Positions 20,025 through 32,089 of a DNA stretch of 54,048 nt are shown piece by piece (position 1 is the first letter of the stretch; each line of letters starts with the position of its first letter). The DNA lies in contig RECH01000213.1 of assembly GCA_007694125.1 (NCBI GenBank), positions 1-54,048 of the forward strand, written 5' to 3'. Under the pieces are notes generated by a model that ran no database searches, was not told the DNA's origin, and saw nothing but the letters and a program-made list of their open reading frames with translations. Origin of the DNA: Leptolyngbya sp. DLM2.Bin15. Lineage in GTDB: Bacteria > Cyanobacteriota > Cyanobacteriia > RECH01. Both the position numbers and the translations under genes were made by a program.

Positions 20025-21452
20025 ATGCATCAGGCGATCGCCCTAGATCCGGCCTACCAGGCCGCAGAGTCTCTACTGCAGCAGTTTGAGCGATTTGGTG
20101 TAGATCTGGGGCTAGATCGCATCCAACATCTATTGACTAGGCTTGGATCGCCCCACCACCGGGTACCGATCATCCATGTCGCTGGTAGTAATGGTAAGGG
20201 CTCTGTCTGTGCTTGCCTATCCGCCGTGCTCACAGCAGCCGGCTACCGAGTCGGGCGCTACACCTCACCCCATTTGGTGCATTGGTGCGAGCGCATCTGT
20301 ATTCAAGATCAGCCCATTGCCGCCGCCGATCTCTATAGCGCGCTCCAAGAGGTGCAGCGCGCCATTGATCCCGATCAACCCTGTCCCACCCAGTTTGAAG
20401 TGTTCACAGCGGCAGCTTGGCTGTATTTTGCCCAGCAGCAGGTTGATCTGGCGGTGATGGAAGTTGGCTTGGGCGGTCGGCTAGATGCCACCAACGTCTG
20501 CGATCGCCCCCTTGTCAGCGTGATTACCTCTCTCAGTCTTGAACATTGGCAGCGCCTGGGCCCAACCCTGGCCGATATTGCCCGAGAAAAAGCCGGTATT
20601 CTCAAAGACCAATGCCCAGCGGTGATTGGGCCCTTGCCTCCCATGGCAGATGCGGTGGTGCGCGGGCGCATAGAGGCGCTGTCCTGTCCTCCGGTTTGGG
20701 TTGAGCCGGCCCAAGACTGTGGGGAGGGTTGGGCGCTCTACACCACGCCAGCAGGGCTAGACCCGCTTCCCCCTGGGCAAACCTACCGCTATCCTTTGAC
20801 CCTACCTGGCCAACATCAGTGCAGTAATTCTGCCGTGGCGATCGCTGCCCTGCAAGTTCTCCAGCGCCAAGGATGGCAGATCTCAACCCAGCATTTTGAC
20901 CAAGGTCTGCGACAGGTGAACTGGCCGGCTCGCTTACAGTGGTTTTCCTGGTCGGGCTGCTCGGTTTTGGTGGATGGGGCCCACAATCCAGCCGGAGCCA
21001 TCGCCCTGCGGCAGTATGTCGATCAATGCATGACCAGGGGCGATCGCCTCCATGCTCCCATCCACTGGGTCATGGGACTGTTGGCAACCAAAGACCATGC
21101 AGATATTTTGCAGCCGCTGCTGCGCCCAGGCGATCGCCTCTGGTTGGTGGAGGTGCCAGGTCATGCTGCCGCCGATCCTCAAGATCTGATGGATATAGCC
21201 TATCAAGTTTGCCCCACCTTAGGCGCTTGCGAAAGCTACACCGATCCCATAGAAGGGTTGCGGGAAGCGATCGCCGCTAGCCAACGCCATCACCCCCAAG
21301 CTCCTAGCGTCATCCTATGCGGATCGCTCTATCTCATTGGCTGGATGTTTCAATCCGCCGAATGGGCTACGCTGGCAACCACGCTTGATCTGCGCCAACA
21401 TCCAATCGTTCCTGTCCTCCATGAACCGTTAAAGCCCTCATCGGCTGGGTAA
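20025..21452 (+). CDS. folC: Dihydrofolate synthase / folylpolyglutamate synthase
   Basis: A 475-residue Mur-ligase-fold enzyme that adds glutamate to dihydropteroate and to folates. The P-loop AGSNGKGSVCA is near residues 52-62, followed by YTSPHLVHWCERI. The second ATP-site motif is MEVGLGGRLDATNV near 146-159, and LVDGAHNPAGAIALR marks the C-terminal domain. All are characteristic of FolC. It ends about 180 bases before the PEP-synthase-like gene. The spacer after folC has a perfect 14-bp palindrome ACAGCGATCGCTGT at 21479-21492 built on HIP1. Confidence 0.95.
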   Translation: MHQAIALDPAYQAAESLLQQFERFGVDLGLDRIQHLLTRLGSPHHRVPIIHVAGSNGKGSVCACLSAVLTAAGYRVGRYTSPHLVHWCERICIQDQPIAAADLYSALQEVQRAIDPDQPCPTQFEVFTAAAWLYFAQQQVDLAVMEVGLGGRLDATNVCDRPLVSVITSLSLEHWQRLGPTLADIAREKAGILKDQCPAVIGPLPPMADAVVRGRIEALSCPPVWVEPAQDCGEGWALYTTPAGLDPLPPGQTYRYPLTLPGQHQCSNSAVAIAALQVLQRQGWQISTQHFDQGLRQVNWPARLQWFSWSGCSVLVDGAHNPAGAIALRQYVDQCMTRGDRLHAPIHWVMGLLATKDHADILQPLLRPGDRLWLVEVPGHAAADPQDLMDIAYQVCPTLGACESYTDPIEGLREAIAASQRHHPQAPSVILCGSLYLIGWMFQSAEWATLATTLDLRQHPIVPVLHEPLKPSSAG

Positions 21453-21632
21453 ACTAAGGACTCACGGTATACTCACGGACAGCGATCGCTGTACTATGTC
21501 CGTCAATCCGTCAATAAGCTGTATTTCTACCACCATCTTCGGCAGACAAAAAACATCCTTTTTTAAATAAGCAGTATTACAGCAAGGTTCACAATCCCAC
21601 GGTAGCTATCTGCGGATTAGGTCATTACTCCA

Positions 21633-29179: not shown

Positions 29180-29878
29180 TTACACACTCACCAACATCGT
29201 GGACAAGAGGCCCTGAAAAAGGTTCATGCCATCGGTGCTGCCCAGCATGGCATCCGCCGCCCGTTCTGGGTGAGGCATCATGCCTAACACGTTGCCTTGG
29301 CGATTGCGAATACCGGCAATATGGTGAATCGACCCATTGGGGTTCGCCTCAGGCGTCAGCTCCCCAGCGCTATTGCAGTAGCGAAATAGCACCTGCTGAT
29401 GGGTTTCTAGCTCGTTGAGGGTGGCCTCGTCGGCATAGTAGCACCCTTCTCCATGGGCAATGGGCAGGGTGATCACTTGGTGCGGCTGGTAGGCCTGCGT
29501 CCAAGGCTGTACCGATCGCTCCACCCGCACCGAGACGCGATCGCAAACAAAATGGAGATCTCGATTTCTCACCAGGGCTCCTGGCAATAGCCCCATTTCG
29601 GTGAGTACTTGGAATCCGTTGCAAATCCCTAGCACCCATTTACCCTTCTGAGCATGGTCTAGGGTGGCTTGCATGGCAGGGGAGAAGCGGGCGATCGCCC
29701 CACAGCGTAGGTAGTCTCCATAGCTAAAACCACCGGGCACCACTATCACATCGAGATCATCAATATCCCGATCTTGGTGCCAGACCATGCGCGTAGGCTG
29801 GCCGAGCAGCCCCTGGGTGACCATGGCCACATCGCGATCGCAATTTGATCCTGGGAAGACAATGACGCCAAATTTCAT
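29180..29878 (-). CDS. purQ: Phosphoribosylformylglycinamidine synthase subunit PurQ
   Basis: A 232-residue class I glutamine amidotransferase that feeds ammonia to PurL in the fourth step of purine synthesis. It begins MKFGVIVFPGSNCDRDV, has VPGGFSYGDYLRCGAIA, the nucleophile cysteine in GICNGFQVL, and the His/Glu pair in the C-terminal MMPHPERAAD. AGAGGATCC provides the ribosome-binding site. It follows purS by 14 bases; purL is not in the window. Confidence 0.96.
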   Translation of the reverse strand: MKFGVIVFPGSNCDRDVAMVTQGLLGQPTRMVWHQDRDIDDLDVIVVPGGFSYGDYLRCGAIARFSPAMQATLDHAQKGKWVLGICNGFQVLTEMGLLPGALVRNRDLHFVCDRVSVRVERSVQPWTQAYQPHQVITLPIAHGEGCYYADEATLNELETHQQVLFRYCNSAGELTPEANPNGSIHHIAGIRNRQGNVLGMMPHPERAADAMLGSTDGMNLFQGLLSTMLVSV

Positions 29879-29892
29879 ACAAGGATCCTCTA

Positions 29893-30174
29893 CTACTTCG
29901 ACACAGACGCCGGGGCGATCGCATCCACCAACTCAAACCGATAGTTTTCAATGACTGGATTGGCCAGCAGTTGATCACACATGCGATCGAGCTGCCCCTC
30001 GGCCTCCTCAGCCGTGCCAGCCTGGAGCGTCAGTTCCACATATTTACCAATCCGCACACCCTCTACATTATCGTAGCCAAGATGCTTCAGACCAGACTGG
30101 ACGGCTGTCCCAGCAGGATCGAGCACCGAAGGGCGCAGGGTGACATAAATTCGGGCGTGATAAGTCTGAGTCAT
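29893..30174 (-). CDS. purS: Phosphoribosylformylglycinamidine synthase subunit PurS
   Basis: A 93-residue small subunit that bridges PurQ and PurL. The sequence YHARIYVTLRPSVLDPAGTAVQSGLKHLGY and VEGVRIGKYVEL are family hallmarks. The ATG at 30174 is chosen because homologues begin just before the first beta strand; the longer in-frame form from 30252 adds a head without similarity. It is the first gene of the purS-purQ unit. Confidence 0.94.
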   Translation of the reverse strand: MTQTYHARIYVTLRPSVLDPAGTAVQSGLKHLGYDNVEGVRIGKYVELTLQAGTAEEAEGQLDRMCDQLLANPVIENYRFELVDAIAPASVSK

Positions 30175-30331
30175 CGTCTCTCTACGGAATACAGGACATA
30201 TAAACAGACGGGCTGTGGGCGCTGCTCCGCAGTCCGACCGAGCAACGAGCATCCTAGCATTCCCAGGTTCACTCTCTCATAGTTCTATGAGGTCTGATGA
30301 AATGATTTAGGTTGAGCAGCGCTCTATGTCA

Positions 30332-30369
30332 TAATCTTTAACAGAGATTCTAATCTTTAACAGAGATTT
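30332..30369. repeat. Two tandem copies of a 19-bp unit
   Basis: TAATCTTTAACAGAGATT plus one base occurs at 30332-30350 and again at 30351-30369, with only the last base different. It lies just left of the TnpB remnant. It may be a duplication tied to loss of the element, or a pair of operator sites between purS and rubA. Confidence 0.65.
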
Positions 30370-30376
30370 TAACTCA

Positions 30377-30514
30377 GCTACAGCCCAGAGACACTGGGTG
30401 GTGATGCCTGTGGAGGACGGTTGCTTGGGAACCCCAATGAAGCAGGAAACCCCAACCGCGAGGAAGGGAAGCCCGTACTCTACCCGTTAGGGTGGAATGT
30501 TGGGAGAATGTCAC
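30377..30514 (+). pseudogene. TnpB C-terminal remnant and right end of an IS200/IS605-type element
   Basis: One frame reads PVEDGCLGTPMKQETPTARK and ends at TAG 30488-30490. The MKQE ending and the DNA that follows (AGCAGGAAACCCCAACCGCGAGG, shortened here, then GAAGCCCGTACTCTACC, a GTTA turn and AATGTCAC) match the 3' end of IS605-type tnpB elements that I recall from cyanobacteria. This end also encodes the guide-like omega RNA and the right-end hairpin used in transposition. All of the RuvC-like catalytic core and the left end are missing, so the piece is a relic. It ends about 40 bases before the rubA start. Confidence 0.75.
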
Positions 30515-30555
30515 TGTTGTCCGTACTGTTTGTTGTCCGTACAGAGGGTAGAGCC

Positions 30556-30972
30556 ATGACTACTGACGCTGCTGACTCCGGCGAGACAAATCCAACTCCG
30601 GCTGCTGACGTAACTGGTCAGGCAGACGAGTCCGCTGACCATGCCCCTGAGGCTTTAGATCCTAAAGACCTCGATCGCTATGAATGTCGCTCCTGCGGCT
30701 ATATCTATGAGCCGGTGAAGGGAGATGGACGGGCCGTTGAGCCAGGTACTCCGTTTGAAGATCTGTCGATTGTTTGGCGATGCCCGGTCTGCTCAGCCCG
30801 CGCGAGTCAATTCAGCAATATTGGCCCCACGGGCAACCCATCTGGCTTTAAAGAAAATTTAGGCTATGGGCTGGGCGTGAATCGCCTCACCCCTGGGCAA
30901 AAAAATATTCTCATTTTTAGTGCCTTGGGACTTGGCGTTCTATTCTTCCTGAGCCTTTATGGTTTGAAGTAG
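30556..30972 (+). CDS. rubA: Rubredoxin RubA with C-terminal membrane anchor
   Basis: A 138-residue protein. A disordered acidic head (about residues 1-38) precedes the rubredoxin fold with its iron ligands in YECRSCGYIYEP and WRCPVCSA. The last 20 residues form a transmembrane segment (LIFSALGLGVLFFLSLYGL). RubA helps photosystem II and photosystem I assembly in the thylakoid. The ATG at 30556 follows AGAGGGTAG; the longer in-frame form from 30421 would read through IS-derived sequence. It is the first gene of the rubA-ycf48-psbEFLJ cluster conserved in cyanobacteria. Confidence 0.95.
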   Translation: MTTDAADSGETNPTPAADVTGQADESADHAPEALDPKDLDRYECRSCGYIYEPVKGDGRAVEPGTPFEDLSIVWRCPVCSARASQFSNIGPTGNPSGFKENLGYGLGVNRLTPGQKNILIFSALGLGVLFFLSLYGLK

Positions 30973-31072
30973 GGGAGCCAAGGGCGATCGCTGCTTTGTT
31001 GCTGAAGGATCGCTGCTCCCCCTAAGCGTCCATCCGGTGTTCAGAATTGCTTAATCCTTAGACCCATTGATC

Positions 31073-32089
31073 ATGCTGTCCTTTCCTAAGTCCATCGCTC
31101 GATTTGTAATTCTGTGTGTTGCTGTGTTGCTCACCAGTGGCTGCGCCAATGCGTATCTAGAAGGAACGGCCACCAACGCTTGGCATACGGTCAGCATTCC
31201 CACCGATGCCACCCTGCTTGACATTGCCTTTGCTGAAGATGCCCAACATGGTTGGCTGGTTGGTAAACAGTCTACTGTTCTAGAAACGAGCGACGGCGGC
31301 GTCAACTGGAAGTTGCGATCGCTTGATTTGGGCGACCAAAATTACAACTTGAACTCCGTTAGTTTTTACCGCAATGAAGGATGGATTGTGGGGCTACCCA
31401 GCCTCCTCCTCCACACCACCGATGGCGGTGACACCTGGTCTCGTGTGCCCCTCAGTGATCAACTGCCCGGCTCACCCGACACCATCACCGCCCTGGGAGA
31501 CGGCATTGCAGAACTTACCACGGATATTGGGGCGATCTACCGCACCCAAGACGCCGGGCAACATTGGCGCGCCATGGTCACCGAAGCGGTCGGGGTCTTG
31601 CGCAACATTTCCCGCTCTGCCGATGGTCGCTATGTGTCGGTGTCGTCCCGAGGCAACTTCTACTCAACCTGGGTGCCTGGCGATGACGTCTGGGTACAGC
31701 ACAACCGCAATAGTTCTCGCCGCCTGCAGAACATGGGGTTCACAGCCGATGGACGGCTATGGTTGATCGCTCGCGGTGGCATCGTTCAATTTGGTGAAAC
31801 TGAGGATGATCTAGAAGCTTGGGGCGAAGCCGTTACGCCGGAATTTGCCACCAGTTGGGGCTTCTTAGACCTCACCTATCAAACCGAGGACGATGTGTGG
31901 TTGGCGGGCGGCAGTGGCAACCTGTTCTACAGCTCAGATGGCGGTAAAACCTGGTTGAAAGACAAGGCCGTTGAAAACGTTCCTTCAAATTTCTATCGCG
32001 TGATGTTTGTGAATCCAGAGCTAGGGTTCATTTTGGGCCAGAGCGGTGTGTTGCTGCGGTATGATCCAGCCACTGCAGAGCTTGCCTAG
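31073..32089 (+). CDS. ycf48: Photosystem II assembly factor Ycf48 (HCF136)
   Basis: A 338-residue lipoprotein. The signal peptide ends with the lipobox LTSGC near residues 20-24, so the mature protein is anchored on the lumenal side. The rest is a seven-bladed propeller with repeated S-D-G-G-x-x-W units (LETSDGGVNWKL, HTTDGGDTW, YRTQDAGQHWR, YSSDGGKTW). Ycf48 binds the D1 precursor and early assembly complexes. ATG at 31073 is used rather than TTG at 31067. It lies 100 bases after rubA and 147 before psbE. Confidence 0.95.
   Translation: MLSFPKSIARFVILCVAVLLTSGCANAYLEGTATNAWHTVSIPTDATLLDIAFAEDAQHGWLVGKQSTVLETSDGGVNWKLRSLDLGDQNYNLNSVSFYRNEGWIVGLPSLLLHTTDGGDTWSRVPLSDQLPGSPDTITALGDGIAELTTDIGAIYRTQDAGQHWRAMVTEAVGVLRNISRSADGRYVSVSSRGNFYSTWVPGDDVWVQHNRNSSRRLQNMGFTADGRLWLIARGGIVQFGETEDDLEAWGEAVTPEFATSWGFLDLTYQTEDDVWLAGGSGNLFYSSDGGKTWLKDKAVENVPSNFYRVMFVNPELGFILGQSGVLLRYDPATAELA

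Follow-up and report, generated by a model that had tools for sequence, protein, structure and literature searches.

The window (the whole stretch of 54,048 bases that was analysed, from genome G000) contains a 142-bp insert on the plus strand at 30373–30514, which is the solo right end of a TnpB-only IS200/IS605 (IS1341-type) element and a relic of a known kind. The insert was delimited by comparing the filled sites in G000 and G001 with the empty site in G002 (Table 1). Very probably, an element inserted before rubA, was internally deleted and became an immobile right end, which probably lies in the 5′ UTR and drifts without guide-RNA function; this history is ordinary IS decay. A reading of the letters alone (the sequence-only reading) had placed a relic at 30377–30514, about 40 bases before rubA. 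Its span was almost exact, and the distance from the insert end to the rubA ATG (30556) was 41 bases. rubA is the first gene of a rubA-ycf48-psbEF.. cluster; the names ycf48, psbE and psbF, like ahcY, gltA and trpB below, are our presumption from the appearance of the proteins and not from a family search. Conservation of the rubA-ycf48-psbEFLJ cluster in most cyanobacteria is described in PMC3772215.

Table 1. Features of the rubA leader and its insert (positions in the window).
Feature	Position	Strand	Basis
19-bp tandem repeat (ATCTTTAACAGAGATTYTA x2) directly 5′ of the insert	30334..30371	+	G000, G001; single in G002
TTAA target site bordering the insert on its 5′ side	30369..30372	+	empty site in G002; left-end copies; ahcY empty site
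Solo right end of TnpB-only IS200/IS605 element	30373..30514	+	filled/empty comparison; similarity to intact elements
Omega-RNA-type scaffold	30379..30514	+	models R1 and R2 match 30381–30514; covariation in alignments A1 and A3
Remnant of tnpB 3′ end (PVEDGCLGTPMKQETPTARKGSPYSTR, then TAG within the aligned stretch)	30395..30493	+	tblastn
Terminal right-end hairpin	30472..30505	+	G000/G001 comparison; covariation
Post-insert leader (former guide position)	30515..30555	+	three-genome alignment
rubA, membrane-anchored rubredoxin	30556..30972	+	Pfam Rubredoxin, E 2.9e-16; ORF list

The rubA locus of G002, which like G001 is a congener, was a clean empty site, reading TTTTAA^TGTTGTCC (TTAA^TGTTGTCC) and, over a longer junction, TTTTAA^TGTTGTCCGTACAGAGGG, with nothing in between. 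The right-end cut followed position 30514 (..TGTCAC^TGTTG), and multi-copy relatives with unrelated right flanks split in sequence immediately after TGTCAC. Eight left-end copies in G045 and G058, which have unrelated left flanks, all shared the junction TTAAC, and the ahcY empty site in G001 and G002 was TTAA^GCTG. Combined, these junctions place the element 3′ of TTAA, with its own sequence extending from C to TCAC. Insertion 3′ of a fixed short target without target duplication was found at the rubA and ahcY empty sites and in the left-end copies.

Since G002 has an empty site, the relic is an insertion and not a native leader. The sequence-only reading had named an identical sequence upstream of rubA in all relatives as the sign of a native leader; of the 58 relatives, one (G001) had a match at rubA. 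G000 and G001 were thus the sole genomes with such a match among the 59 searched, and the leaders of G000, G001 and G002 were read base by base. A rubA-like protein was found in 58 of the 59 genomes; the rubredoxin found in G003 was weak and probably a different one. The alternative of a native leader RNA that merely resembles a TnpB right end would agree with the near-identity of the sequence in two species, but it is refuted by the empty site, by sequences of this type at the ends of tnpB genes elsewhere and by three more copies in G000. A native riboswitch or leader, an idea raised by the copies before ahcY and gltA, was likewise ruled out by intact tnpB-linked copies and the empty site.

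The tail of a TnpB protein is still legible in the insert. In a tblastn search of the window's own genome, residues 386–418 (33 aa) of the L010 TnpB aligned to 30395–30493 with 67% identity (E 1.1e-6) and one TAG. The relic frame reads ..TAQRHWVVMPVEDGCLGTPMKQETPTARKGSPYSTR followed by a stop, versus ..VILPVEEGCLGTPMKQETSRAILGSPR in the intact L010 protein, which is encoded in genome G058, has 418 aa and three TnpB Pfam domains, and ends in VILPVEEGCLGTPMKQETSRAILGSPRSIRFG. At the DNA level, the relic was 79% identical over 120 bp (E 3.8e-23) to multi-copy elements of another family, copies of which occupied seven places in G045 and two in G058. The protein and DNA matches together bear out the proposed TnpB C-terminal and IS605 right-end relic. 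A pattern search of named genomes returned 24 stretches, 23 of them in cyanobacterial MAGs and one in a MAG labelled Chloroflexaceae. An origin from the two TnpBs of G000 itself (L005 and L006) was rejected, as their right ends differ.

The 5′ side of the insert retains merely about 4–6 bases of the element's left end: the rubA copy in G000 begins CTCAGCTACAGCCC, so that at most the first few left-end bases can remain. No left-end hairpin was present between TTAA and the scaffold at rubA, and L010 and L002 each have one. The rubA copy has thus lost its left end and almost the whole of tnpB, in agreement with the sequence-only reading, which called the rest of the element gone. Because the left end is missing, the rubA relic is immobile. 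Insertion as a 142-bp mini-element was considered and not favoured, since the ahcY copy and the intact copies have a left end and the rubA copy does not. In the preferred history, a TnpB-only IS200/IS605-superfamily element would have landed 3′ of TTAA at a distance of 25 nt from the rubA start codon; the lineage concerned is today represented by two species of the genus. The left-end hairpin and almost the whole of tnpB would then have been lost in an internal deletion, which left the 142-bp right end with its omega-RNA scaffold. Transcription of rubA would run through the scaffold as 5′ UTR, and the scaffold would be drifting, most likely without guide-RNA function.

The scaffold consists of a 5′ stem, a CCTGT/GCAGG long-range stem, an internal stem, a terminal hairpin and the TGTCAC end. 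Alignment A1, comprising 16 right ends over their common core and including the relic, was used to build covariance model R1; in A1, both partners were changed in one or more sequences at 14 of 25 predicted pairs. Since R1 includes the relic itself, a second model (R2) was built without the genus, from nine right ends that all lie outside it. R2 matched the window at 30381–30514 with 123 bits (E 5.9e-26), over the whole omega-RNA-type fold. The sole match of R1 in all 54,048 bases was the relic. Elsewhere, R2 scored 107 bits at the G001 rubA copy, 111 at ahcY, 77–83 at gltA and 50 at the trpB side, and gave no match at the G002 rubA locus. In the eight R2 matches, 93% of pair cells were standard and 17 pairs had double changes; their covariation score was reached by none of 500 shuffles, in an alignment that is model-fitted and so biased toward the model. 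The GC-rich 3′ hairpin of the sequence-only reading was right for about 30472–30505, but the region alone folded no better than shuffles (z −0.39). Rfam covariance models gave no match in 29800–31100 at E≤1.

In the empty allele of G002, 25 nt separate TTAA from the rubA ATG. As this leaves so little room, the native promoter is probably upstream of the insert, and in the carriers the relic would probably be transcribed as rubA 5′ UTR. A scan of 30170–30600 for sigma-70-like promoters found no site. With 5′ ends assumed, the predicted unpaired probability of the Shine-Dalgarno-like stretch was 0.26 (G000), 0.40 (G001) and 0.34 (G002), and that of the start region was 0.51, 0.57 and 0.59, respectively. 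Predicted access to the ribosome-binding site with the insert (G000, G001) was therefore similar to that of the empty allele (G002). PF07282 and PF01385 each matched the same two TnpBs in G000 (L005 and L006). A cognate TnpB was not found in the G000 assembly (384 contigs, 99.87% complete), in which both TnpBs were of other types by their right ends and the better was 30% identical to that of L010. G002 had no L010-like TnpB at E≤0.001. G001 has a TnpB (L070) that is 59% identical to that of L010, with a right end like that of the trpB-side copy. Since no cognate TnpB was found, a working guide-RNA role of the relic in G000 is unlikely. A position in the rubA leader transcript, as first proposed, is plausible. 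The proposed effect on expression is so far unsupported, given the similar ribosome-binding-site access, the lack of a cognate TnpB and a conservation no higher than that of the flanks.

Between the two carriers, 2 of 186 sites differed in the upstream intergenic region, 45 of 417 in rubA and 19 of 68 at rubA fourfold sites. Within the insert, 5 of 104 sites differed in the body and 12 of 35 in the terminal hairpin (30479–30514). The insert changes no slower than its surroundings and is not more conserved than its flanks. Comparison of the G000 hairpin with L008 showed that a hairpin is still possible in both despite the 12 differences. Co-option of the relic as a regulatory rubA 5′ leader, whose fold would adjust how the photosystem II assembly operon is translated or how stable its RNA is, is unlikely. 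Its probable location in the 5′ UTR, the still complete scaffold recognised by R2 and the retention of a related gltA relic in G000, G001 and G002, which indicates that such relics can persist in leaders, would fit co-option. The pace of change between carriers, the alike accessibility of the Shine-Dalgarno-like stretch with and without the insert, the absence of the insert from G002 and the lack of detection at rubA in other relatives argue against it, as does the gltA relic, which was likewise not clearly slower than its flank (body 4–10% different, upstream flank 9–12%). A regulatory role has no support beyond position, and exaptation is unproven.

The distribution of the insert does not follow the similarity of the three genomes in rubA and beyond. 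From rubA downstream, G001 and G002 shared 77 sites, G000 and G001 45, and G000 and G002 36. The presence of the insert in both G000 and G001, despite the closeness of G001 to G002, reflects either loss in G002 or a tract moved by recombination. The unusual upstream similarity of G000 and G001 is not well explained by plain vertical descent, because G001 and G002 share more sites from rubA onward. One form of transfer would be homing, in which the scaffold, with the post-insert leader as its guide, would direct a TnpB in trans to cut the empty rubA allele by TTAA and the filled allele would spread between species by recombination. In its favour, the 25 nt after the insert in G001 match what follows TTAA in the empty allele of G002. 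A short tract around the insert is also almost the same in G000 and G001, against flanks that differ by 5–11%, and G001 has the TnpB described above; PMC11870625 describes TnpB gene drive for plasmids that carry an IS. Homing is nevertheless very unlikely here. A cognate TnpB was found in neither G000 nor G002, and a 16-bp duplication in G000 interrupts the guide match after 12 nt. When the 21 kb that could be aligned among the three genomes were scanned in 1,049 overlapping sliding windows, the low-divergence tract at the insert ranked 15th by excess, surpassed by a second place in the analysed stretch, and stemmed mostly from G002 changes at 30160–30240; a homing or gene-conversion tract was a weak case and was set aside. 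That place, at 21309–21569, showed the effect most strongly of all the 21 kb compared: there G000 and G001 were far closer to each other than to G002. The 16-bp duplication in the post-insert leader is found in G000 only, and this leader is 25 nt long in G001 and G002. Two local duplications thus flank the insert, the 19-bp one at 30334–30371 (G000, G001) and the 16-bp one at 30515–30540 (G000 only). The 19-bp repeat has no counterpart on the other side of the insert.

Besides the rubA copy, G000 holds copies at ahcY, gltA and the trpB side. The ahcY copy (L002; G000:C200, minus strand, upstream of the gene) has left and right ends but no tnpB, lies about 50 bp before ahcY and keeps the left-end hairpin (GGGGGGCTATAAGTCCCGCGC..). 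It is missing from G001 and G002, and G000 has lost about 100 bp of the target between two TTAA sites. The gltA copy (L004, L057, L058) was shared by G000, G001 and G002, whereas none could be recognised in G003. In each of the three species its right end stops 28 nt short of the start codon for citrate synthase, and immediately upstream is another sequence, similar to the end of a different TnpB type (AATCCCCACTCCTGAAGTTCGGGGAAGACATCAA). The trpB-side copy was absent from G002. At L166 (G001:C278 near 127465), the right end reaches up to, or itself provides, the start codon ATG of the following ORF (ATGTCAACAGCC..), which we take to resemble ndhG behind an ndhI-like ORF. At L011/L119 (G035:C78), an ORF begins directly after TGTCAC. 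A wider proposal, that decaying TnpB elements leave scaffolds in housekeeping leaders (rubA, gltA, ahcY) and that some are kept for expression or spread by homing, appears improbable.

In a sample of 292 genomes of the phylum (cyanobacteria), R1 had matches at E≤1e-5 in 60. In the four nearest genomes, at E≤0.01, it matched 11 places in G000, 8 in G001, 5 in G002 and 20 in G003. The matches in G003, a genome of the same family, were eight identical-scoring full-length and twelve short contig-end ones, which point to a multi-copy element of another subtype. A tnpB census covered 88 loci among the matches listed: 60 chosen by place, and 28 of 30 others, from which the rubA relic itself and a locus at the beginning of a contig were excluded. 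Of the 89 matches in these loci, 49 had a tnpB of at least 300 aa upstream, 17 had part of one and 23 none, the last figure being an upper bound since the TnpB query set could miss distant TnpBs. Since 40 of the 89 sampled matches in other cyanobacteria were without most or all of tnpB, TnpB-less right ends are ordinary here. An apparent sense bias of TnpB-less copies (26 of 40, against 20 of 48 intact ones after exclusion of one intact copy for which no downstream gene was called; Fisher p 0.034) was gone near genes. Within 150 bp of a gene, 12 of 22 TnpB-less and 17 of 35 intact copies were in sense orientation (p 0.79), in a comparison in which copies are not independent and gene calls are crude ORFs; the bias was not accepted.

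The rubA relic is a genus-level case of a TnpB element decayed to its omega-RNA end before a conserved photosystem II assembly cluster. The filled and empty rubA alleles in sister species form a natural test of whether leftover scaffolds in leaders alter host expression. With the covariance models, an omega-RNA type becomes searchable that was not reported by Rfam here and that is carried by the 60 matching cyanobacterial genomes of the sample. In the titles and abstract beginnings covered, nothing was found on solo omega-RNA ends in cyanobacterial leaders, and no absence is claimed. TldRs are nuclease-dead TnpB repressors with guide RNAs and would be the closest working analogue of a domesticated omega RNA affecting host genes. 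They differ from the present case in that no TldR-like gene lies beside the relic, and the Pfam TnpB domains found just two transposon TnpBs in G000. PATEs are described in PMC7290912 as non-coding, ends-only derivatives of IS605. Judged by that description, the ahcY copy, with both ends and no tnpB, is PATE-like, whereas the rubA copy is without a left hairpin and does not qualify as mobile. For ISDra2 and IS608, PMC8612924 describes a guide RNA, about 150 nt long, to which the 3′ end of tnpB and the right end contribute and whose guide comes from the flank, and targets beside fixed 5′ motifs (TTGAT and TTAC, respectively). On those features, the relic resembles both systems in its right-end guide-RNA region, in the flank as guide position and in a fixed 5′ target motif, and differs from them in its TTAA target, its TCAC right end and the lack of a nuclease partner among those searched for. 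Unlike intact IS1341-type elements, the relic has lost its left-end hairpin and nearly all of tnpB and exists as one fixed copy, without tnpA. With the TnpB-only (IS1341-type) elements of cyanobacteria it shares the tnpB tail, the omega-RNA right end, the terminal hairpin and a TTAA target without duplication.
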